DNA from: Geosiphon pyriformis
Taxonomy: Eukaryota; Glomeromycota; Glomeromycetes; Archaeosporales; Geosiphonaceae
Direction of reading: 5' to 3'
Length of the DNA stretch: 50,318 nucleotides
NCBI GenBank assembly: GCA_016748015.1
Contig: JAAOMT010000281.1
Location: 1 to 50,318, forward strand
The notes under the pieces are model-generated. The model saw only the letters and a list, made by a program, of their open reading frames with translations, searched no databases and had not been told where the DNA came from. The translations under genes and the position numbers were made by a program. Shown piece after piece: positions 8,938 through 50,318 of the stretch. The stretch's first letter is position 1; every line of letters starts with the position of its first letter.

Positions 8938-9658
8938 GAGGTGTTCCCTGCCTTCAAGCAAAATTTTATCCTATATAGGATTACTCTTAACTTTATCGAT
9001 GACGAATTACCGGCGTCCACCAACTCACGAACCCAACAGCTATAACCAGTACGACTAACGACTCACTACTCATTACTCACAAATTCAAAGAACACTAAAA
9101 ATATCCAAGAGAGATTCGTTCTCGTCCCCAGTCGTACTGATAACCGCAGCAGGTCTCCAAGGTTAAAAGCCTCCAGTTGATAGAACAATCCAGGTAAGGG
9201 TGTTGACGTATCTCTTTTAGCTCTAAGTGTTGTGTAAAGAAGAGGGGCATCCTTTACCAGAAAGAACCCCAACCTTAACCGAAGAAACTCAACCAAGCGC
9301 GGGGTTTCCAACTCCTTTATATCGCCAAAAGTGGTGTTCTCTAACCACTGTACATGCACCCATTCTGCTGAATGTCTGTTTTCACTTACGGTCTATGACA
9401 TGAATTGTTATACCTCTGTGCATGTACCCATTCTGCCGAATGTCTGCTTCCACTTATGGTCAATGACATGAATTGTTATTTAACCTCTGTGCTTGCCGCA
9501 TTCCAGCTAAATGTTTGTTTCCACTTATGGTTATTGATGTGCATCATGGGTTAAACTCTTCCTATCTACTATCTAGTGAATGGACTGAGCTTGGCAAAAT
9601 CGGCGGAAAAAGAAGACCCTAATAAGTTTGACTCTAGTTTGACACCAACAATTGACGG

Positions 9659-9916
9659 ATAACCATCACCCACCAATAATTCACGATTCAACATTCGAAT
9701 ATGACTACCACCCACCAATATTTCATGAATTCAACCTTCGAATATAACTACCAAACACCAATAATTCGGAACTCAACATTCGAATAATCACCACCCACTA
9801 AAAATGCGCGAATTCAACATTCAAATATAACCAGCACCCACTAGTAACTCGCAATTCAACATTCGAATAACCACGCTCACCAGCAATTTGCAATTCAACA
9901 TTCGAATAACCAATGA
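9659..9916 (+). repeat. Minisatellite of about 40 bp, six units (copy B)
   Basis: Same unit as at 1084-1505, with the TTCGAA-containing core and CCACC arm, but about six units and no second five-unit block. Confidence 0.8.
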
Positions 9917-10774: not shown

Positions 10775-11640
10775 CTAGAAAATTAAATTATCGGGATTAA
10801 ATTTAATTTTAGTGTCCTTATTTTTGATAGTAAAAAAAATAGCCATTAAAGAATGATTTATTGTTACCATAGGAGGACATTGCGACATCATTTGTCCTAA
10901 ATAAGGACCAATATGTGATGCGAAAGCTTCTTCAATTGATGCAGCCTCGGTTCTACCATTGCATTCCTAAATATATAAAAAATGGTTAATAACTGTTAAA
11001 GGATTGTTAAGATTAAAAACAAAATTTTGATTCTATAGCAACTTACCCGGCGTTTCAACTTTATCCCGCTTGTGGTTTTGGGGCCTGGGCATAAATAAAT
11101 ATTGAAATTATCCCCATTATTATCGGAAGTAGCACAGCCACAATCTTTTGGCGATATCCAAAGCTCCTGTCCATGGTGTAAATATTGCGCTTTCTTATAA
11201 CTCTTTGGATACTTGGGTATAAAATCATTATAACATGTCACTCTATATATTTTTAGATTCTTAAAGAAATTTAGCTAATGAGCGAATTTGTAGTTTTCGA
11301 ATCGAGGTTTACCATATGTGTAAACTTTAATCTGAGATAATTCACGCGCTTTTACTGTCAAGATTTCGAAAGCTCCAAGTACAGCAAACACTAAAAATTA
11401 ATGTCATTTAGATGAGTCTTGTCAAGAAATTCGATCAAAATATAAATATTTATGTATCACCACCAAGCCCATGTCCAACAAAACTCAAATTATATGCTGG
11501 TGGAATTCCTTTTTGTCTATGATCAATTTGACGCCTTAGTTCAGTTCACCCAAGTTGAAATTTAAGGGAAAAATTTCTATCGATCATCAGATCATTTGTA
11601 CTTTTGTATCGCGTTTGGAGTAGGTAACTTCAAAATCTAA
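10775..11640 (-). pseudogene. Secreted class-3 lipase-like gene, broken (copy L1)
   Basis: Read on the minus strand, the pieces match the intact gene at 32.65-34.08 kb. A piece near 11,470 gives SFVGHGLG at the nucleophile elbow, with Gly where a lipase has Ser. After an intron ending at 11,391, exon 4 (11,390-11,047, 344 nt, the same length as in the intact gene) gives VYTYGKPRFENYKFAH, then YRVTCYNDFIPKYP with the triad Asp. An 80-bp intron follows, and the last exon (10,966-10,775) gives ASHIGPYLGQMMSQC with the presumed triad His. Defects: TAG at 11,277-11,275, TGA at 11,548-11,546, an apparent frame change near 11,580, and a donor at 11,460 that removes one Gly of the elbow. The C-terminal tail runs longer than in the other copies. 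The family would normally act outside the cell on lipid esters. Confidence 0.88.
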
Positions 11641-12559
11641 CTCTTTGGCACAAATCTGGATCAAGAAAACTGGTTTTTACGTATGCTTGTTATTTTCGCT
11701 AAGGTAGACGATTGAGATTTGAATTTTAAAATAATGAAATTTCGGGGAATTAATCATAAAGTAATGTAAAGTTTATAATGCAAGATGCTAATACCATAAA
11801 ATTCATCAGTCATTTTATAACGTCTTGATCGTTGACCGGATTTAAACAAAATGCTTCACTAGCGAAAAAGTGAATTTTTTCAATTTTTCTATAAACAGAT
11901 TATCCGATCGGAGTAAACCTTTTTTAGAGAATGTGTTGCTTATATGACGTTTTTCGAGTGTTGAACGACACTTTTCTAATAATTCTACTTGAATTTAACT
12001 GTATAGTTGACTTTAATCTAAAGATAAAAAAATAATTCAAGTATAATTAATTTTTATTTTTGAATTTTTTTCCACAATTTCGAAGGTTTTGCTCACATGG
12101 TTAATAAAAAACCAAATAGCCAAATCTATAATTTTGATTTTCAACTGTGATATTATAATTAACAAAAAACTAAAATTTTTTTACAATTAATTTCTCTTTA
12201 ATTAAAATTAATATTCTCAAAATCAATTAGCCATTAGCTCTGTTGAATTAATATACTATCTTTATTTTTTAAACGCAAAATTAATTTTTTTTTAGAAATT
12301 AAATTATTTTGTTTGTAATATTAATAATGCTTGATTTAGAAATTATCTAACATCAAAATTTTGAAATTTTATTTTTATTACATTGGAGTTGTTTTAAATA
12401 GTCTTATTACAAAACTTTCAAAAAAAAGTTTGTAAACCTTGAAAATCTTCAGAAATAGGAAACTCTGCAAAAAATTTGCTAACAACAAAACAAATTGAAG
12501 CATCAGGTGATTTTGACATTCAAGTCATAAATTTTTAGATGTTTAGCAACAACATTATA

Positions 12560-13476: not shown

Positions 13477-15024
13477 TTATGTAGGATAGAAATGTTGACA
13501 ATCTCCAAAAGTCGTGCCAAACCATGGACCGAAATGTGCAGCATTGCTTAATCTATTTTGTCCTGGATCTTTTCCTAGATTACAATCCTAAAAGTTAAAT
13601 TATATTTAAATTTTAGAATCTTACCCATTTTGCATGTGTAAAATAATATTTATCCTGAAAAGGTTTTATTGCAAATTCTTACCATATTCTCACCAAATTT
13701 TTTCTGAGCATTGGGGAAAAAGCCAGGACATTCATAGACTTTATACAAGCCATTCTTATCTTTTTCTCCAGTAATTGAACTACAATCACAATCTTCAATA
13801 CCCGGAATCCAATATTCAGTTTCGGTATGCCAATATTGTATCCCGTCATTAGATATTTTTGGGAATTGGGAGACATAATCATTTCCGTTGGTCACTCTAT
13901 AAATTTTTACACGATTTTTTCTTTTATAAATCATTTCAGCATTTTTACTATTACCAATACGCGGTTGACCGAACGTAATCACTTCAATTGTTAGGCTCGG
14001 CCATTGAAACATTTTAAAACCACCCGCCATTTCAAAAGTAGCCACCGAAAAGGCCATGAGTACAGCATATGCTTGAATAGTTAAGGCAAAAATTATTTTA
14101 TTAGTTGAGAGATATTTAAAATTAACTCGAAATATTTGAAATTTGAATATTATAATTTTTTACCTCCTCCAGTTCCATGCCCAGTAAAAATTAATCTAGC
14201 TTTTTGGCCAGATATTTTTTCACCTAAAGCCATTATTTCCTTGAAGATAGGTATACGATTTTCATCAACAAGAAATTTACTATCTACCGGTCCTCCAGTT
14301 ATAGTTTCCTTTTTATTGAGAAAGTTTTTACGTTTTTCCCACTGAGACCTCGTCATCTCTGAGCCTATAAAGAAAATTTTCAGAATAAATAGAAAATTAA
14401 ATTGTTGAATCCGAAATTGAAACTAACTTTAAAAATACCTCAAAACACATTCCTCTAAAATACGCAATAATAGTCGCTTTTTTTTCATCCAAGAACACTT
14501 CATATGAAATTGAGTGAGAAAATATAAAAAAGCCAGTAGGGTTGGAAATTTTCTTTTCAAAATTGAAGTTTCATTCACAATAATCTATACTCACCATTTG
14601 AACCATTTCGCGGAAAACAATAAGGAATATTTGCTACTCGAGCCATTTCTGCGAAGAAATCAATTAAAGTTACATCAGTGACTAGTATTTTCGAGGGAGC
14701 TGAGTTTTTTAATTTATCAAACCCCCGAGTTGTTCGTTTTAATAGATTTGCTTTATTCCAATATAGGGTAGAATTTAAGGATGAAATACGTATTTTTATA
14801 GGTGAATTATAAGAACTATCTAATGGTAGCTTTGGTATTGAAGTAAAGTTGTAGGAATTTGAAGATTGGGAATAAGAATTTTTCAAAAAATAAACTAAAC
14901 TACGGGAGAACCATATTATTGTGATAATTAAACATGATCTAGGAAACTTTTCATTCAAAAGTTTTTTATAATTTCGAGACAACATTCTTTCAAAAAAATA
15001 ACCAGGATAAAAAATTATTTTCAA
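13477..15024 (-). CDS. Class-3 lipase-like protein, near-intact, Ser-less (copy L2)
   Basis: Five exons can be joined in phase: 15,024-14,595, 14,497-14,453, 14,364-14,164, 14,071-13,683 and 13,587-13,477, giving about 391 residues (378 if the Met at 14,985 is used, which puts the hydrophobic stretch SCLIITIIWFSRSLVYFL nearer the N-terminus as a signal or anchor). Visible blocks: AYFRG (oxyanion block), IFTGHGTGG (elbow, Gly for Ser, codons 14,176-14,174), AYAVLMAF, VITFGQPRIGN, YRVTNGNDYVSQFP (triad Asp), VYECPGF, and AAHFGPWFGTTFGDC (presumed triad His). One fault: the donor after AYFRG reads G|GAATGT instead of G|GTATGT (14,452-14,451). A weak GT 7 nt further in (GTTTTG) would also keep the frame and add two residues. 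So it may be alive with a shifted splice site or newly dead. Confidence 0.8.
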
Positions 15025-17190
15025 AAAGCTTTCATAAATTTATGATCTTCAGGGGAAAATTATTTTGTGGTTTCAATATAACCTGGCGAGAGATATCTAA
15101 TGCCTGAAACATATGCATCAAATATTTATTTCATTGAAACAAATAAAAATATGTCAACAATTTCGAGCCTTTATACATGTATATAATAGAGAAATATTTG
15201 AATAAGAATCCTTAACAAATTAGGGGAAATGAATTTATTAGACTTTCAAATAAGCAAATAAACGATTAGTACTATGAAATTGACCTTTGAAAGTTTGTGG
15301 CATATTGTATTGGTGAATAATAAGGTAAATTTATTTTTATGACTTCAATTATAATTGATCAAAATAGATTTTTAAACTATGCACATTATATAAAGAACTT
15401 AAAAAAAAAAAGGGTTTGTCATTGGGAAAAATGGCAAAAATTAAAATAATGATGGTAAAAGAAAGAAAACGTTTTATCTATACAATTTAAAATTAGGGAA
15501 AATTTGAATTTCATATTTTAAAACTTTACAAAATATTTATTTGTGACCTTTTTTTGTTTTCAATTATCAAAAATAGAATCTCAAAAAATATTTGAAAATA
15601 GCATTTCATAAAATCTTTTTAAAAAAATCACAATTATCGAACTTAATCCAATATTCTACCATAATTTTTTATTCTTGATCAAGAAATTTTATATCATTAA
15701 TATTTTTGCACAACATGTAAATGATTATTTTTTTTGGAAATTCTTAAAATATTGAATAGTCAAAATAATATAAGATTCATTTATTTTTAATTATCCCACC
15801 CTGAATGAAATTCTATTATCACAAATAAAGTAGTTTTCGATAAATGAATTTCTATATACAGTATATCTTTAAATAAAATTAATAAATTAATAAAATATGC
15901 CAAAAAACATAACACATTTCCCCGTTCTATTTACATTACTAATTTTTTTTTAAAAATATAATAAACTCTTAATTTATATTTTATATTGCTCCTTTCCAAT
16001 ATAATAACCTATAAAGTATTGATAAAACAGCAAAAAAAAAATTTCCGATTCAAAACCTTTCATGAATTTATATAAATCATATAATTTTATAACGAATACA
16101 TTCTCTTCCTTTCTGATTCTAATTAATAATTTACTATAAGGCAGTGTACAATTAATATCATATTTTTAACACTGTTCCAATTCGAAGATATAATATATGA
16201 ATTTGTTGTTTAATTTCCACTGTACCGTTGACTTGAATAGCAAATAGGAAAGCCCCAAAAGATAATATTTCTATCATTTTGATAAGTTAGAAAATTAGGA
16301 CCAAAATCTTTTGTCATATACTAAATATCTTGATATTTGACAAACACTCCCAATGAATCCATTCATATTTAATTTACTCTACCACTAAGATTATTATTAG
16401 GTAAAATATAGATTGAATTCTTAATTATTTTATCAACTTTCTTATTGCCGCTTGTAAAGTCTTTATAACGTTTTTTAAAATATATGAATCGGCATGCACT
16501 ATACTTATTCCATCTATCTCGACACCAATAACACTCATTGAAATCATGATCATATGAACGAGTCGTTCTTTTAATTTCTTGTAAATAAAATTGAATAGGC
16601 TATTATTCGAATAGAATTTTTTAACAAGAGCAAGGTTTTTTTAAAAAGTAAATTTTTTAAAATGGGGAGTTAGTATTCATCTTATTTCTCTGTGTTTCTT
16701 AACAAATCAATTTATTAATCAAAATATGATTCGCTATAAATTATAGTACAAAAAGATGCCAATCAAAGTTTACCTAAAAACGAGTAGTTTAATTTCTTTA
16801 TTAGAACCAATATTAGTCAATTATTTTTTTGCCTTTTTTTAACATTTTGAAAAAAGAGCATAATCATAAATTTACTTAATAAGACTCGAAATGAAATTAA
16901 TATAGGAATCAGAGACATTTAAAAATTTAAACGGGTAATTCTATGTGTAAGAACAAATGATATAATTATTTTTTCGTTATTTTATTTTGCCTAATACTAA
17001 AGGAAAAAATTTTATTAACGATGGCTTTGAATTTCTTGTTTTATTTGCTCTCGGTTTTTCTTTAAACTAACTTTGGATGCTACAAAATCGATATTTAATT
17101 ATTCTATTAAGGTATTTATAAACCAATTAAGTTCTGCTGTTTATCCTTTTTCGAACTAATATCTTGTATTGATATATATACTTTAGTACT
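15025..17190. other. Gene-poor stretch downstream and upstream of lipase copies
   Basis: 14,930-15,330 (5' end of L2 and its flank) has a diverged relative at 26,460-27,010. Minus-strand pieces at 16,290-16,170 (MIEILSFGAFLFAIQVNG, which looks like a signal peptide) and 16,640-16,420 (about 65 open codons without an early Met) look coding-like but lead nowhere I can follow. The rest is AT-rich with nothing supported. Confidence 0.35.
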
Positions 17191-17199
17191 CGGATTGAG

Positions 17200-17430
17200 G
17201 AATGGTGCCTAGTTTACTATGGTGTCTTTAGCAAATGTAGTACGGAATATTGCAAATCGACCAATATCAATTAGAGTCGAAATAATCCTTGCAAATTTTT
17301 TATTACCAATATGTGGTTGACCATACGTGAATACATCAAAATAATGGCGTCCCGGTAATCTAATCACAAATCCCTATTGTGGCAAAAACTGTGTATGTTA
17401 CACAAAAAGTAATAGTTGATTATATTCTAA
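17200..17430 (-). pseudogene. Decayed class-3 lipase relic (L4)
   Basis: On the minus strand TYTVFATIG (elbow-following helix, compare AYAVLTAL in the intact copy) is followed, after a frame change, by RLPGRHYFDVFTYGQPHIGN and KKFARIISTLIDIGRF, then FRTTFAKDTIV and a stop. VFTYGQPHIGN is the family's TFGQPRIGN block with Arg changed to His, and AKD sits where the triad Asp is expected. The N-terminal half, including the elbow, is not recognisable, and the sequence runs into the AT island upstream. Confidence 0.7.
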
Positions 17431-19739
17431 GCAAATGTGTAAAATTTTTGATTAGCGAGTGGTTCAAATCTATTGAAAACCTTTTGAGCGAACTAAAACT
17501 TGAAATCTAAAATATTTTAGAATATCTTTTAGAATCTTTAGAAAATTATACTCTTTATATGAACTGTAAATTATTAAAAAAATTTAAAAAAGTTTTTAAA
17601 TTAATAAACAATAAAATAATATTCCAATAAGAAATGTAGTATATAAATTTAGAATAAAATATTTATTTGAATAGTATGTATTATTTATACATAATTTTTA
17701 ATATTATATTTTAAACCATATTTTATACTTATGTGATTCAATAAGTAAATTTTATAAGTTATATTCAATTTTATAAACAGATTGTATTTGATTAACAATA
17801 TTCTTACAAAAAACAAATTGAATAAGATAAAACAACATAAATAGTAATATGTTTTAAAGATTTATAAAATAAATACAAAAACATATTATCTATATTTTCT
17901 AAATAAAATTAATTTTAATTTTTAGAATACATTATATAAACTATAATAAATAAATAATTAAAGCTTTAAAAAGAAATTGTTTTTAAGAGATATTATAAAT
18001 ATTATTAAATTAAATATATTATAAATACAATATAAGTATAAATTATTTAACTGCAGTCAAAATAAAAAATTAATAATTCTTTATAATAAAATATAACATA
18101 CAAAAATACAAGATAAAATTACTTAAAAACTATATATTTTTGGTATTTAATTTATTAATAAATGTTTTAATAAAATTAAAAACATAAATTTGATTTAATA
18201 TAAAACCTTATAAACAAAAATTTACATATAAACAAAATGATTTTTAATTTGTAAAGAAATGCTAATAAGCTTGTATTAATTTAAATTTTAAGTTTGGTAG
18301 TACAAAAGCAAAATAAAAATAAAGTTAAAACAAACACAAAAATTAGTTTCAAGAAAGTAAACTTAAATTATTAAAATATGTGTGTATAATTATTAAATTA
18401 ATTTAAAAGCCTATAAATTTTAATATAGCAATAAATACTAATGATTGTTTTTAATATGTTTTTTTGATATTATAATTATCAAATCTTAAAAACAAATATT
18501 ATTAAAGCTAAATTGTTTTAAAAGTATGTATAAAATATTACAAAACTGTTAATAATAATAATATATATAATTTATATTTTATTACTAATCATAATTATTT
18601 AAAAAATTAAACCAACTTAAATATATATTTATTTATATAATCACAATATTTTGCATTTTTAATAAAAAAAATTTAATAAGTCGCTATTTAAAATTGTATT
18701 TGTATAATTTGAAACTCATATTTACAAAAATAATGAATTTTTAAAACATATTTCATATATAAAATTAATTAAAAATAAAAATTTAAAAATAGTATTATTA
18801 CTTCAAAATTTTTCTTAATAACAAATTATATATATTGTTAATTATACTTTTATTTTTCAATCAAAATGTTTGTTTAAAGAAAAATTATTTTTGTTTTAAT
18901 TTTATCAAGTTTTTTATTTTATATTTGAAATAAAACAGCAAAAACAAATTAATTATATTTTTTAATAAAAAATAATAATTGGTATTTATTAAAATAAAAA
19001 AATTTAAATAAAAATATTTAATATTGCTTATAATAATATTGGTAAACAAAAATAAAATTATTATTATTATTGTTATTTAATTTTATTTATCCTTGGTAAT
19101 TTGTAATTATTTATAATTTTTGCATATTTGTTAAACGAAATTTAAAAATATAATTTTTTAAAAACAGTAGCAAATTCCAAATAAACAAAAATATAATTAA
19201 TTTACATCAAATTTACTATAAATTCAAAAAATTACAAAATAAATTATAATATTTAAAAAAATAAATAAACAAAAATAAACTATTTAAAATATTTTAATTA
19301 AGAAAAAATAATGAAAAAAATTTAAATAAGTATGTTTGCTAATTTTAAGTTATATAAATACAAATATTAAAAATACATAAAGCATTATAAAATAAATACT
19401 ATAATTTTTGCATTAAAAATAACAATAATTATTAATGTTATATATTTTTAAATAAAAACATAACATAATTTGTAAAATATTAAATATAATTGTATATAGC
19501 AGTTATTTTCAAATGTTTTATTTAAATTGTTATTTATTAATAGAGATTATTTATTTTATTTTGATAAAAAAATATTGCTATTGTTATTATTATTGTTAAA
19601 ATGAAATTTTTTTTAATTAAAAGTAATAAGTACAGCTTTATTCATGTAATTACATTATTTTGTAAAATATTTTAATTTATTATATTATTATAAAAATAAA
19701 TAATTTAATAAATAAAATTAACCAATCAAACATAAGCAA
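17431..19739. other. Extreme AT island
   Basis: About 2.3 kb. Sampled 60-bp lines hold only 5-7 G or C (about 8-12%). No reading frames of note and no obvious tandem unit. It ends abruptly at about 19,740, where composition jumps to near-normal. Possibilities are an AT-rich isochore, a decayed repeat or a replication/centromere-like segment; sequence alone does not decide. Confidence 0.7.
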
Positions 19740-22439: not shown

Positions 22440-24095
22440 AAATAAGTTTATTTGCATATTCTTATAAGAATCTTTAAATAGCTCATGCAATATTTGTTTT
22501 TGTTCATCTTGTATTCTCTTATAAAGTATATGTTTAACATGAGCAAGCTTACTAATTGCATCATAAAATTTCTTGCTATTTTCAAGCTTCATAAACTGTT
22601 CAAAATTGGTAATAGCAGTTAGTACATCCTTAATATTCATTACTTTCTGTACTTCTTATTTTTCATCAGAGCTATTATGCTTTGTTTCACGATTTGTTAC
22701 AATATAATTTGCAATCTCATCATCATCCAGATGTTCCAAAGTAATTGTATCATTTTTCTCAGATAAATTTACCAACTCTTCAATTGATAAGTATGTACAA
22801 TTTGGCTGTATACAATTGAACTCTTTGTAGCAATCCTTAATCTTTTCTAATACTATCTCTTGATTATAATTAGCTATTATTTCAAAGTTTGTAGTTTTAT
22901 TCTGAAAGTTGTTATTTGTATTAATCAGAAGAATGCCAACTTTGTGCCAGCAATGAGCGATTGTTTCATTTGAAACATTCTCCCATGCCCTATAAATTAG
23001 ATGTATTGCTTGAAGTTGGTTGATTATATAAATATTATTGGCACCATCATCAAAAAAATCCAATACATGGCAAAAAAAATAGTGACAGTAATGTGCCTTA
23101 AAACAATTCCAGCATCCATAAGCTAAATATGTGCTGTCAAGTTAGGTGCAAACCATTTTACATGAATATTTGTAATAGATCTCATATCATAGTTGTGACC
23201 AGCAAAATTGTCTACTAACAATAATATGTTTCGGTTTTTTTTATGCAGCTAATAGTTCCAATCAACAAGCCACTGTCGAAAATATCACCAGTCATCTAAG
23301 CATGAGTGTTTGAATAATACTGGAAACCAAGTTGCTCTCCTGTTTTTTTTTGGAAACAGCGTGGACGTTTAGCATAACCAATAATAAGTAATGGCAAACA
23401 CTTAGTTCTATTAGTATTAGTTGTAAAGGCAAGTATTAGTCGCACTTTTGATTGTTTGGTGCCATAACATGGTATTGTAGCAAGACCTCGATTTGGTAAT
23501 ATGGCATAAAATAGTGTAGTTTCATCCATGTTGAAAAAATTGCGTAACCTCTAATCAGCAAGAAGTGTTATTACATGCACTCACTCATTTTCAATATGTT
23601 CAACATTGACTGATAATGCATCACCATGAAAGCAAAGTGAACACAATCCAACACAGTCTTTAAAGCTCTCAAGTCAGCTATTAGATAGTTTTTGGTGCTT
23701 ATTTTCTGGAATATCCAATTGATCATAGAACTTTATACCAGCAGCTTGAACTACATTTCTAGTAAGTGTCATTCCACACGATTCTGCCTCTTGAACAAAA
23801 TAATAAGTGCTTTATCAAAGTCAGAATTACATATTGTGCATATACATTTGCTAGTCAAGTCATGCATTGTATTTGCTTGTGCACAAAGATTTGGTTCATC
23901 TTTGACCCAAGCTGAAACTAGAGGCTGTTTCATGTATGAAAAACCATTTTCCTTAAAGTGTCTTGCAGTTTTTGATTGGTTTTTATCATTTGCATGATAC
24001 CAATCAAGCATCATAAGCTTATTATGAAGTGTAGCATTCTCACGACTTTGCAGAACACAGGCTGAAGAGATAGCATGTTTTTTGCTATTAGACAT
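22440..24095 (-). pseudogene. Tigger/pogo transposase (CENP-B HTH plus DDE_1), disabled
   Basis: From the Met at 24,095 the N-terminus shows a helix-turn-helix block (NKLMMLDWYHANDKNQSKTA, KQPLVSAWVKDEPNL). A frame change near 23,790 leads to CGMTLTRNVVQAAGIKFYDQ and LESFKDCVGL. The catalytic domain gives FFNMDETTLFY (first Asp), ILLLVDNFAGHN (second Asp) and LMDAGI (third Asp), that is a DDD triad. The C-terminal part (23,063-22,281) is open apart from one stop near 22,656. Stops fall where the family has Trp, Tyr or Gln (SNS*LESFK, ENE*VHV, LAD*RL, THA*MTG, AHI*LMD), and there are at least three frame changes. The true stop codon near the left TIR is not evident. Confidence 0.88.
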
Positions 24096-24150
24096 GATAG
24101 AATCAAAAGACAAAGGAAAAGTATGATTAGGATGGGACTGATCCAAAAAT

Positions 24151-24300
24151 CTGACTTGATTACTCACACAATTGATAATAATTTAAAACTTGGAACAATT
24201 CGAAACTCTGATTTGATTACTCACACAATTGATGATAATTTAAAACTTGGGACAATTCAAAACTCCGACTTGATTACTTACACAATTAATGATCATTCTG
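24151..24300. repeat. 57-bp tandem repeat, 2.6 units, in the transposon's leader
   Basis: Units at 24,151, 24,208 and 24,265 (truncated) share TTGATTACTCACACAATTGA and ATTTAAAACTTGG. It lies between the right TIR and the transposase start. As 57 is a multiple of 3 the plus strand stays open across it (repeating DLITHTIDDNLKLGTI), but I treat that as a by-product. Confidence 0.8.
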
Positions 24301-32650: not shown

Positions 32651-34077
32651 ATGGCTAAAGCTCTTAATCTGTTCGCATTTTTCTTTTTGCTCTTTTATCC
32701 TTGCATGAAATTCGGCGCACAAATATCAGGAAGGCAAGGTTTATTTGAATTAAATTTAAGACGTCAACAGAGTCACAAAACCTGGCATCTATATCATAAT
32801 GCTCGAAAACTACAAGTAAGGAATTAACTATATCTTTAAAAAAATAGTTTTTTTTTGACATCAAATTTTTCAAATTAGGCGAAATTGGGACAGAAGTCGA
32901 TTTTTAAAAAATTTCTGAATAGAACAACTCTTCGAGCTCTTAATCCTCGGTCATTCGGTGAGGACGGTTTGCAACGAATACCACCAAAAACTCTTTTAGA
33001 AAGTACAGAACAACTTGATTTGATGGGAATTTACGCAAGAATTGCAAATCTAGGTTATTGTTTAGATAACAATGACATAGGGAAAGTCGTGTCTGATAAT
33101 CAAGTCAAAGGTATACATATAATGTAAGGTCTATCAAAAATCACCTTTTCATTTTGAAATTTACAATATTTTCGATTCTTTGTTTAGCTTATGCTTTTCT
33201 AGTAGATGAAGAAATCATGGTTTTTTTCAAAAGCCCAGAGCTTAGTATCGAAGCATGGCAACAAAGAAAAAACACTATGGTAGATTATCGTCCCGAATTT
33301 GCTACAAACTCTCCGATGAAGGTGGATCAAGTTTGGTATAAGAATACGTTAATATTCAAAAATAAAATTTTTGAAAAAATTCATAGTCTGATACGCAAAG
33401 GAAATTTGGATAAAAATGAAATTCTTGTATCTTTTACAGGACATGGAATCGGTGGAGGTGAGAGAAAGAGAGGAGTTATTATCTTCAATGAGGAGAATTT
33501 TCGGAATTTCATAGAATTTTTTGAAAACTCTTGCAAAATTTTAGCATATGCAGTTTTGACAGCTTTGGAATTCGCAAAAGAAGTAATAATTGGAACTAAG
33601 CTCCATATCGATATGTTTATTTTTACTTTTGGGCAACCAAGAATCGGTAATGGAGGGTTCTCGAGTTTCGTTAATGATGTCGTAGCAATGTGCCGAATCA
33701 CACATACCAATGATCGAGTTCCCCAATTCCCTTTGGTGGATGATAAAGGGGAAAAATATTGTCATCACGATCAAGAAGCTTGGATTACTCATGATTGTAA
33801 TTGTCTAGAAACCAGCACTACCACAGAATATGTTGTTTATGAGTGTCCTGGATATAAATCCGAATGGGGCGATATTAGAGAGCATCCTGTAAGTCTCAAT
33901 GTTACAAGAGGTTTTAAAGCAATTTTAATTCTCTCAATTTCTGAACTCTTTCTTTTCAACAAGGATTGCAACTTGAAACAAGAAGGATCGGAAGAAGATG
34001 CTATTCGTGCACATTATGGACCATATTTTGGCACAACCATGGGAGACTGCAAATCAATGTGGCAACGATGGTGGTGA
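32651..34077 (+). CDS. Secreted class-3 lipase-like protein with Gly for catalytic Ser (L3)
   Basis: Five exons join cleanly: 32,651-32,815, 32,879-33,110, 33,188-33,457, 33,545-33,888 and 33,964-34,077, with introns of 63-87 bp and correct phases, 374 residues. Residues 1-23 (MAKALNLFAFFFLLFYPCM) form a signal peptide with a plausible cut after FGA. The alpha/beta-hydrolase core shows IMVFFKSPE where active lipases have the FRGT oxyanion loop, then SFTGHGIGG with Gly219 in place of Ser, AYAVLTALEF, FTFGQPRIGN, THTNDRVPQFP (Asp279) and AHYGPYFG (His354). Asp and His are kept while Ser and FRGT are lost, so hydrolysis by the usual mechanism is unlikely. Paired Cys (CNC, YECPG, DCN, GDC) suggest disulfides in a secreted protein. 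A lipid-binding or effector-like role is only a guess. Confidence 0.88.
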
Positions 34078-42141: not shown

Positions 42142-42953
42142 CTAAACTTCTCATGCTTAAATTAAAATTATAGATGCATCCTAAATTCTATTTTAAAATT
42201 TTATGATAAAACAACAGGTGCTTGAGAAGTAATTATTTATATAACATGAGTTTTAAGGAAAAAAAAAAGGTATAATATTTGTTGGTTTTCAATAAAAAAT
42301 CCCATTAAATTGTAATTGAAAAGTGGCAACGAAATATAAAAAGAAATTTTCCCATGATCAAAAAAACTTAAAAATACATATTTTTGGGGAAAATGGGATT
42401 ACAACTCTAATAAAATAACACCTCAAGTGAGAGCCTTTTGATTTAACCGATTCTTTGATTCTCATCCCTATAAATTGTCATCTGATCAAACATGGAATTC
42501 TTTTTTACCCTATCATAATATATCCTGATTTGTTAGATATGATCATTGATAAAAACTTTTTCATAAAAAATATATATATAAATTCTGTACTTGATCATAG
42601 ACACTTTACAAGTTGTGCTTCCACAAAGAAAAGTAGTTATCACATAAACCCTTCTTCATCTACATTCATTTTCCCCAGAAATGGTAATAATTATGATAAT
42701 CATATATTATTATCATACTGATCTCTAGACTAACTCAAATATCCTCGAGTTAAAACATTCGAATCTCGTTTTACTTGAAACAAAATAGTGAAAAAGTAAA
42801 TAATCGAATTAAAAGAACAAATGGTCAAAGTACTTTTTTTGGAAACTACAGATCAAATGATCATGATAAAAGATAATTTGAAATTCGATGTGTTTTTTAT
42901 TTCTATAATAAAATTTTAAATCGATTTCCAAACCATTTTGAAGATATTAAAAA

Positions 42954-44684
42954 ATGTCAACAGAACTCGATCCTTCACAAAGAATCATACGACCATTAAC
43001 TCCTTTAGAAAGATTTTACACAATTCGTCAATCCTTAGACTATTATCACAATATTCTTTCTATGGTCACATACAATCATCCTTTGCTCGCATCGATCCCT
43101 TCCTCAGCCTTAATTGAGACACTAACTCCAATATTAACGGAAACGATCACCCATCTAATTAACAGCCTTCCTTCACTTTCAATCGCAATCACTGATATTA
43201 AATCAGATGAACCGAAATTCGTACATGTTCCAGAAATTAATTTAAATCAGATTATAAGATTCGTATGGTGTCAAGAAAAACAAGATGTTGAGCAAGTTTT
43301 TGAAGATGAACATGATTTGGTTTTTGACCAAGAGGATACCAGAAAGGTATTGTGGCGATGTGTTGTTTTATTATGGAGGTCGAATGGTGAGATGGAAAAT
43401 TTTTCAAATTCGGCCAGCGAAATTCAAACTTCAACCACCGATCAATCGAGCCAAATTGGAATTCTTTTTTGTTACCATCATTCAATAGGCGATGGTCAAT
43501 CCTCATTCGTGTTTCATTCGGAATTATCTTCTCTTCTAAACACCAATTTCTCTAATTTCTCAATTAAATTACAATCAAAATCTCAATCACCTCAAAAAAC
43601 TCTTTCAAAAATTAATACTAATTTCCAACAAATAGCACCACCATTAGAGCACTTTATCAATCTCCGTCCACCGTTCCTCAAATTAATCCGCCTTATTACA
43701 CCTTTATTTCTTATTCCAGAACCTATTAAGAATGTGTTTCTACCTGATTATTGGGGTGGGGATATTCATGCGATGGATGTCAAAAAAGGATTAAAGACCA
43801 AAGTTATAATTATTAAAGTTGAGGAAGAAGTTTTGAATGAGATTTATGAAAAAGCAAAACAGAATGAAACGACGGTGCATGCAGTAATGAATACCGCTAT
43901 GGTTTTCGGAATATATAAACATCTCTTACCCAAGAAAGTGGAAGATAATTCGAAATCTAATGTATCAAACAAAAAAAAAATGATTCGAACATCATCACCC
44001 ATCTCGTTTCGAAAACAATCCTCACCACCAATTCCAGTCACAAATATGGGTAACTACATTAGCGAAGTCGTCGTCGATATACCATTCACCAAAATCCAAA
44101 CAAAAGGCAAAAAGGCAGATAATCTTTTTTGGAATATGGCACGTGATTGGAAAAAACAGTGCCTTCAACAGGTTGAAGGGACCAAATATAAGATTTGGTT
44201 TTTGAAATTACTTGGAAAAAAATTTGGAAAGTGGGAAAAATGGGTAAAAGAGAGAAAGCATGAGAAAAGAGGAATGGGACGAGATGCTAGTGGTCAGATT
44301 TCAAATTTGGGAAGGTGGATTCCGAGATCTGACGAAGAAAGTAAGAAGGATATCGATAAAAATAGTCAAATGAGAGAGGATAATTGGAAGATTATGGATA
44401 TAATTTTTTCGCAATCAGCTAATGTAGGTTTCTTTTTTCTATTTCATATTTTTTTTATCTGAACTGTTATAATTCTTGCTCAAATCACAATAAGTTTCCT
44501 TACAAATCTTTCAAAGGTTATCGGAGGTGCGATTCAAATTAATGCGGCTACATATAAAGATACCTTATCTTTGGCTTTAACTTATCAAGAAGGCGCCATA
44601 GATTCGAGTAAAGTGGAATTGTTTTCTAATGCATTCTTGGATGCTTTGAGAGAAATCGCGCAGAAAGGGAATATTAATATTTGA
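42954..44684 (+). CDS. Alcohol acetyltransferase-like (HHxxxDG) acyltransferase
   Basis: Two exons (42,954-44,423 and 44,517-44,684) around a 93-bp intron (GTAGGT...TTCAAAG) give 545 residues, normal for fungal AATase-like proteins. The N-terminus RIIRPLTPLERFYTIRQSL followed by YHNILSMVTYNHPL is typical of the fungal family. The catalytic motif is YHHSIGDGQSS with His176 and Asp180 (HxxxD). Later blocks: NMGNYISEVVVDIPF, SQSANVIGGAIQINAATY and LALTYQEGAI. The plant BAHD DFGWG motif is absent, which fits AATase or condensation-type enzymes. Expected reaction: acyl transfer from acyl-CoA to an alcohol or amine; substrate unknown. No signal peptide. A low-complexity Ser/Gln segment sits after the HHxxxDG region. 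It stands alone between two PLAC8 genes with no shared direction. Confidence 0.85.
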
Positions 44685-50027: not shown

Positions 50028-50028
50028 C

Positions 50029-50318
50029 ATAGGAGGACATTGCGACATCATTTGTCCTAAATAAGGACCAAGATGTGATGTGAAAGCTTCTTCAATTGAT
50101 GCAGCCTCGGTTCTACCATTGAATTCGTAAATATATAAGAAATGGTTAATAACTGTTAAAGGATTGTTAAGATTAAAAACAAAATTTTGATTCTATAGCA
50201 ACTTACCCGGCGTTTCAACTTTATCCCGCTCGTGGTTTTGGGGCCTGGGCATAAATAAATGTTGAAATTATCCCCATTATTATCGAAAGTAGCACAGCCA
50301 CAATCTTTTGGCGATATC
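50029..50318 (-). pseudogene. Class-3 lipase-like 3' end, recent copy of L1 (L6, cut by window end)
   Basis: About 97% identical (eight differences by eye in 290 bp) to 10,866-11,155, including the intron. It covers the end of exon 4 (ECPG-type LCPGP block region and KRR before a GTAAGT donor) and the last exon up to GQMMSQCPPM. The acceptor is changed from TTTAG to TTTAC at 50,127, and the next conserved Cys is Phe (EFN for ECN). The homology stops abruptly at 50,029, after which the frame would run on into unrelated sequence (VLTNLHKKS...). The rest of the gene lies beyond the window, so I cannot judge it fully. Confidence 0.8.

Follow-up and report, generated by a model that had tools for sequence, protein, structure and literature searches.

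The genome of Geosiphon pyriformis carries a large family of genes for class-3 lipase-like proteins in which the residue at the position of the nucleophilic Ser is usually Gly. The genes of this Gly class are for the most part intact and under purifying selection, and they retain the catalytic Asp, the catalytic His and the Gly of the oxyanion motif as often as the genes of the Ser class do. By these measures the Gly members are a constrained family of predicted Ser-less pseudoenzymes, with loss of activity deduced from the missing Ser. The description below starts from one such gene within the window, by which we mean the whole stretch of 50,318 nucleotides that was analyzed.

RESULTS

A Ser-less class-3 lipase gene and its relatives in the window

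The five exons of the window gene (Table 1), with all introns GT-AG and the start of exon 5 fixed by a spliced profile-alignment model, encode a product of 374 amino acids. The product is a member of the sequence family Lipase_3 (PF01764; 71.2 bits, with the curated cut-off at 22). When the residues expected of an active class-3 lipase are considered, the catalytic Asp and His are present as Asp279 and His354, the nucleophile Ser of GHSxG is replaced by Gly219 (codon GGA), and the FRG(T) oxyanion motif is replaced by FFKSPE, with Ser148 in place of its Gly. In both single-sequence and profile comparison, the elbow and the Asp fall on the corresponding columns of solved fungal lipases, and the column of His354 is tied to them through a Ser paralog whose C-terminal His aligns to a His toward the close of the 6a0w match; the aligned residues of the solved lipases are presumed here to have their familiar catalytic roles. 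The sequence-only reading had placed the gene at 32651-34077 with Gly219, Asp279, His354 and FFKSPE, and these coordinates and residue numbers are right.

The intron that follows the elbow is in frame and without a stop, which is why an ORF finder takes it as coding. Splicing out 33458-33544 yields the lipase-like GHGIGG-AYAVLTALEFA. The paralog models listed splice at the same point, an agreement that is not independent, as the paralogs were picked in part by the presence of a donor there.

The elbow pattern GGNCAYGGNNNNGGNG is found at three places in the window, 33439 (+), 14167 (-) and 11461 (-), compared with 0.01 expected. The earlier description of three copies with a GHGxG elbow is thereby borne out, as is that of the copy at 13.5-15.0 kb as near-intact, with stop-free modelled exons, and of the copy at 11.5 kb as broken, with two stops. 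In a profile scan of the window with a reporting threshold of 70, the copies at 33 kb, 14 kb and 11.5 kb score 1358, 872 and 416, respectively. For the remnant at 17.3 kb the score is 154, with 128 in a second chunk, and for the exon at the right end it is 146; the remaining stretches above threshold, parts of the three copies aside, score 70-116. By eye, the right-end exon is like the subfamily of the broken copy. The window has a GC content of 27.3%, and an Rfam scan of its whole length at gathering scores gave no match.

Table 1. Coordinates of the features of the window, with the strand where assigned.
Feature	Position	Strand	Description
Window gene	32651-34077	+	five exons
Exon 1	32651..32815	+	start codon and hydrophobic leader MAKALNLFAFFFLLFYPCMKFGAQ (leader by eye); donor GTAAG
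Exon 2	32879..33110	+	conserved ANLGYC segment with Cys116
Exon 3	33188..33457	+	FFKSPE at the place of FRGT; SIEAWQQR motif; exon end is the elbow
Nucleophile elbow GHGIGG	33439..33456	+	Gly219 codon GGA at 33445-33447; aligned to the elbow of solved lipases
Post-elbow intron	33458..33544	+	in frame, without stop
Exon 4	33545..33888	+	AYAVLTALEFA, TFGQPRIG, Asp279 at 33712-33714, CNC, YECPG
Exon 5	33964..34077	+	CN; His354 at 34012-34014 within AHYGPYFG; C-terminal Cys366; stop
Second copy	13483..15477	-	elbow at 14167-14182 reads GHGTGG; Asp and His retained; modelled exons stop-free; 5' end uncertain
Broken third copy	10868..11879	-	GHGLG elbow at 11461-11476; two stops
Degraded remnant of a further copy	17224-18204	-	exon-4-like TYGQPHIG stretch at 17280..17339
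C-terminal exon of another copy	50028..50317	-	SHLGPYLG...C; cut by the right window end
Alcohol acetyltransferase-like ORF	42951-44462	+	long ORF with alcohol acetyltransferase domain (PF07247, 34.8 bits)
Transposase piece and nearby ORF	22656-23141 and 23769-24182	-	DDE_1 piece (PF03184, 26.8 bits); nearby ORF with helix-turn-helix match under cut-off
Short direct-repeat arrays	9344-9550 and 9707-9872		two arrays with 68- and 83-base units

Gly is the usual elbow residue across the genome

The assembly searched comprises 124.7 Mb in 406 contigs. A DNA pattern for a GHxxGG elbow with an intron donor, neutral with respect to the nucleophile codon, occurs at 321 places in it, compared with 2 for the reversed pattern used as a control; the count includes broken copies with an intact elbow and misses other layouts. 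At these 321 elbows the nucleophile codon specifies Gly 230 times, Ser 35 times (AGY 31, TCN 4) and Ala 25 times, with 31 others by subtraction; the reversed-pattern control gave 0 for each residue subset. Ser in most close homologs had been named as an outcome that would speak against the sequence-only reading, and the counts are otherwise. Searching the genome with Pfam Lipase_3 gave at least 163 exon matches, with 150 of 750 candidates scored. Among the matches listed, a dense cluster of family members lies on contig C252 at about 242-309 kb, and further clusters are seen on C98, C122, C227, C283 and C370.

Loci were then modelled from a sample that took in all 35 Ser places and, among the matches listed, 50 of the 230 Gly places (on contigs up to C280) and 15 of the 56 places with neither Ser nor Gly. 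Four of these Ser loci and one further non-Ser locus (L003) entered from the Pfam Lipase_3 search, and the main set, with the two window copies, has 103 loci. The addition of 11 further Gly places, chosen for elbow letters like those of fetched or window copies and so not random, brought the total to 114. The gene models come from our own spliced profile alignment; because its profile was built from the same family and anchored on the window gene, their 5' ends are unreliable.

Integrity and selection

Complete, stop-free models were obtained for 49 of 52 Gly, 30 of 35 Ser and 10 of 16 other loci in the main set. Under a looser rule, which considers core columns and allows no stop beyond modelled residue 50, 102 of the 114 loci were retained (59 Gly, 32 Ser and 11 other), and the comparisons of residues below refer to these.

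Eight close Gly-Gly pairs with no gene shared between them give a pooled dN/dS of 0.54 over core columns (p 8e-14, synonymous versus non-synonymous), and two Ser-Ser pairs give 0.48. Single Gly-Gly pairs range from 0.29 to 0.71 (16 overlapping pairs, core columns only). For the window gene itself, the nearest fetched copy is L105, the modelled 5' part of which contains a stop; the pair gives a dN/dS of 0.68, without a significant departure below 1 (p 0.12). The expectation that dN/dS in the Gly class would not be near 1 is upheld by the pooled pairs but not by the pair that contains the window gene.

The elbow Gly codons in the sample (GGA 31, GGT 22, GGC 6, GGG 4) have a spectrum similar to that of the codons for the Gly two residues before (GGA 28, GGT 19, GGG 11, GGC 5). 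As a fresh change from AGY yields only GGT or GGC, most of the elbow Gly residues are not fresh.

Conservation of the remaining active site

Asp279 is kept in 58 of 59 Gly models and 31 of 32 Ser models, and His354 in 54 of 59 and 28 of 32 (Fisher p 0.71). For the FRG Gly the corresponding counts are 55 of 59 and 30 of 32. The five Gly models that deviate at position 354 have Asn, and the window gene is one of the four without the FRG Gly. The Arg of the FRG motif reaches no more than 53%, and the position that follows the motif varies. The six cysteine columns 116, 307, 309, 323, 339 and 366 are occupied by Cys in 96-100% of the Gly class, gaps set aside, which would fit an oxidising compartment.

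Models with neither Ser nor Gly at the elbow keep the His in 3 of 11 cases (Fisher p 1.8e-5 versus Gly); of the eight losses, one is a gap. The rarity of the His at these elbows would point to a need for it beyond folding, but on independent tree pairs the contrast does not reach significance (5 pairs, median p 0.5). Four such models (L041, L048, L049 and L050) combine Tyr, Phe or Glu at the elbow with replacement of the His by Arg, Lys or Glu and so form a small group inactivated in a second way.

Migration of the nucleophile to another position was also considered and rejected: no Ser, Thr or Cys column exceeds 60% in the Gly class with a 25-point lead over the Ser class. When the same test for gained columns is opened to all residues, only Asp at column 179 passes (0.71 versus 0.35).

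Repeated exchange of Ser and other residues at the elbow

The tree was built from 96 rows, after 6 near-copies had been dropped from the 102 models and the elbow column had been removed. The Gly form is not one clade, and Ser and non-Ser residues interchange repeatedly on the tree. Parsimony requires 18 changes for Gly, of which at least 11 are forced by well-supported branches, and a single Gly clade is present in 0% of 200 bootstrap trees. One Gly clade as a constraint is rejected by the AU test (p 2.6e-53). The window copies at 33 kb and 14 kb do fall together in a well-supported clade of 35 rows, of which 29 have Gly, 3 Ser and 3 Ala. The broken copy at 11.5 kb, which is outside the tree rows, by eye resembles another subfamily (L060, L115). 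The nearest row to the window gene in the trees, L064, has the C-terminal letters MWQRWW in common with it (34057-34077).

It follows that the sequence-only reading stands in part. A large, mostly intact and constrained Gly family with leader-like N-termini is supported; its proposal that Gly is ancestral to a single branch holding all three window copies is not supported, in view of the AU test, the 18 changes and the resemblance of the broken copy to another subfamily.

A model in which Ser is lost irreversibly was rejected as well: it needs 26 losses, compared with 12 changes when these are free, and has a log likelihood of -51.6 versus -39.9, the reversible model being better by 11.7 log units. 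The root for the loss models was a chosen Ser member of the FRGT kind, and any of three single rows of this kind gives identical figures; the seven rows intended as an outgroup do not form one side of a branch in the tree. Since these figures come from a single best tree in which 33 of 93 inner branches have support below 80 and the bootstrap is unsettled, regain of Ser is a lead only, and any direction given to the changes is provisional. Within a mostly Gly clade, L036 and L038, which have Ser encoded by TCA at the elbow, lie beside L059, which has Gly; the proteins of L038 and L059 share 53% identity. The Ala members of the clade that holds L036 and L038 (GCA, GCT) could be a step in the regain of Ser.

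N-terminal leaders and fatty-acid synthesis

Leader-like ORF starts were found upstream of 48 of the 102 loci (27 of 59 Gly and 14 of 32 Ser), compared with 2% for shuffled sequences and 3 of 102 on the reverse strand; the other 54 loci have no leader by this rule, which is a simple hydropathy criterion applied after an upstream ATG, such that some hits may be membrane anchors.

Sel1 repeats are present in bulk (2002 first-look candidates, 150 of them scored). The abundance of Sel1 repeats is a mark of Glomeromycotina. Searching the genome for the FAS-I domain PF08354 gave 0 candidates, although no match does not prove absence, and no trypsin domain was found in the genome. The loss of FAS in Glomeromycotina is reported in portions of PMC10629195 and PMC11134847, the latter of which also describes Geosiphon as associated with Nostoc. 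Geosiphon pyriformis, a relative of arbuscular mycorrhizal fungi, would seem to lack fatty-acid synthesis of its own.

DISCUSSION

From the sequence features described above, we put at just short of an even chance the reading that the Gly members are exported proteins of the lipase fold that form no acyl-enzyme and bind fatty acids or acyl lipids, perhaps for scavenging. As the nucleophile Ser is missing, the acyl-enzyme of a class-3 lipase is not possible in these proteins, and from this same absence we infer that hydrolysis has probably been lost; that they may bind lipids is suggested by the kept pocket alone. It can be hypothesized that the Gly members leave the cell by way of their N-terminal hydrophobic leader and that a carboxylate or ester carbonyl is then accommodated near the oxyanion site and the His, in place of the Ser side chain. 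Lipids might in this way be held or handed over in the topologically external space around the hyphae or the Nostoc partner, alongside a minority of Ser paralogs that could still be able to cut esters. With no FAS-I found, the fungus would need to import fatty acids, and lipid binders would suit such a need.

The retained Asp, His and FRG Gly, which are as frequent as in the Ser proteins, could equally be expected if the Gly proteins were still enzymes, with Asp-His activating water or with some other reaction taking place on the oxyanion site and His, in either case without an acyl-enzyme and with Gly leaving room. The varied codons of the elbow Gly, which point to its presence for long enough to allow silent change, and the raw counts in which bulky elbow residues accompany loss of the His, would also be in line with such Ser-free catalysis. 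It is nevertheless unlikely in our estimation, given that Asn replaces the His in five of the 59 Gly models, that independent pairs show no significant contrast with other elbows, and that we know of no tested natural example of a Ser-free class-3 enzyme. Retention of the His is, on the other hand, not predicted if the Gly members are regulatory or structural pseudoenzymes whose targets are Ser paralogs, cell-wall glycans or the surfaces of partners, with lipid binding beside the point. We regard a role of this kind as doubtful, with in its favor the Ser and Gly copies that lie a few kilobases apart, as on contigs C98 (Gly 127040, Ser 129794, Gly 132724), C247 (Gly 235043, Ser 238419) and C100 (Ser 51142, Gly 54792), and the occurrence among the profile matches of plant EDS1 and PAD4, which are lipase-like signalling partners.

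It could also be speculated that active lipases were amplified and that most copies are heading toward pseudogenes, the Gly being an early hit. The broken copy and the remnants in the window, the incomplete loci L060, L098, L100 and L115 and the dN/dS of single Gly-Gly pairs, which reaches 0.71, are in line with such decay. It nonetheless fits worst of the rival explanations, and we hold it to be very unlikely: almost all of the Gly models (49 of 52) are complete and stop-free, the pooled dN/dS is 0.54 (p 8e-14), the Asp and Cys columns are nearly invariant, and the codon spectrum of the elbow looks old.

Returning to exported lipid binders, it is conceivable, if improbable, that the class-3 fold has become in this fungus either a system for capturing lipids outside the cell or a catalyst that works through Asp-His without Ser, with hundreds of genes that replace or feed the lacking fatty-acid synthesis, and with a site that switches between Ser for cutting and Gly for holding.

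Comparison with known proteins places the window gene closest to the fungal class-3 lipases, with 6a0w and 1tgl/4tgl, the latter presumably the Rhizomucor miehei lipase, as the best profile matches (E 1e-22). The Lipase_3 domain and the order of the elbow, the TFGQPRIG-like stretch and the Asp are common to both, whereas the nucleophile Ser and the FRGT motif of those lipases are Gly and FFKSPE in the window gene. The family further differs from them in an added DCDC cysteine pair, the cysteines of which are present in 44-45 of 49 complete Gly models and 14-15 of 30 complete Ser models. Feruloyl esterase A (1usw, 2bjh), another Lipase_3 relative, is the second-best single-sequence match; where the window gene has Gly, its elbow has Ser in 1usw and Ala in the chain of 2bjh, which we take to be an engineered mutant.

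Lipase folds put to other uses are known. Plant EDS1 and PAD4, the lipase-like proteins noted among the profile matches, work without lipase chemistry and are intracellular signalling proteins with a second domain; the Geosiphon proteins, in contrast, are single-domain, have leader-like N-termini and occur in hundreds of copies. A replaced nucleophile Ser is likewise a feature of the esterase or lipase folds of neuroligins, where Gly takes its place, and of insect yolk proteins, which all belong to other families with few genes each.

Large fungal Lipase_3 expansions have a precedent in Entomophthora muscae, where 348 are described in portions of PMC11105155 and read as serving the metabolism of host tissue; that fungus belongs to another group, and those portions leave the elbow residue unmentioned. 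Pseudoenzymes within expanded families are already known (PMC6549527, in part). No mention of Ser-less Lipase_3 genes was found in the portions consulted of PMC11105155, PMC8778642, PMC11426481, PMC10234402, PMC10629195, PMC9453076, PMC7550596 and PMC11134847, and a search for the term "lipase" gives 0 hits in the main text of three of them (PMC9453076, PMC10234402 and PMC11134847). The literature searched contains no report that we found of a class-3 lipase family this large in a single genome in which Gly usually occupies the nucleophile position; the search excluded the Geosiphon genome paper (10.1016/j.cub.2021.01.058), so an earlier mention is possible.

In conclusion, a count of domains alone would suggest a huge lipase arsenal in this fungus, most members of which are without the nucleophile. 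Should lipid binding by the Gly proteins be real, they would be candidates for the capture of fatty acids from the partner or the surroundings by a FAS-less relative of arbuscular mycorrhizal fungi, a question that the natural Ser and Gly sister proteins make testable. If they instead catalyze, they would represent a textbook hydrolase in a naturally occurring form that works without Ser.
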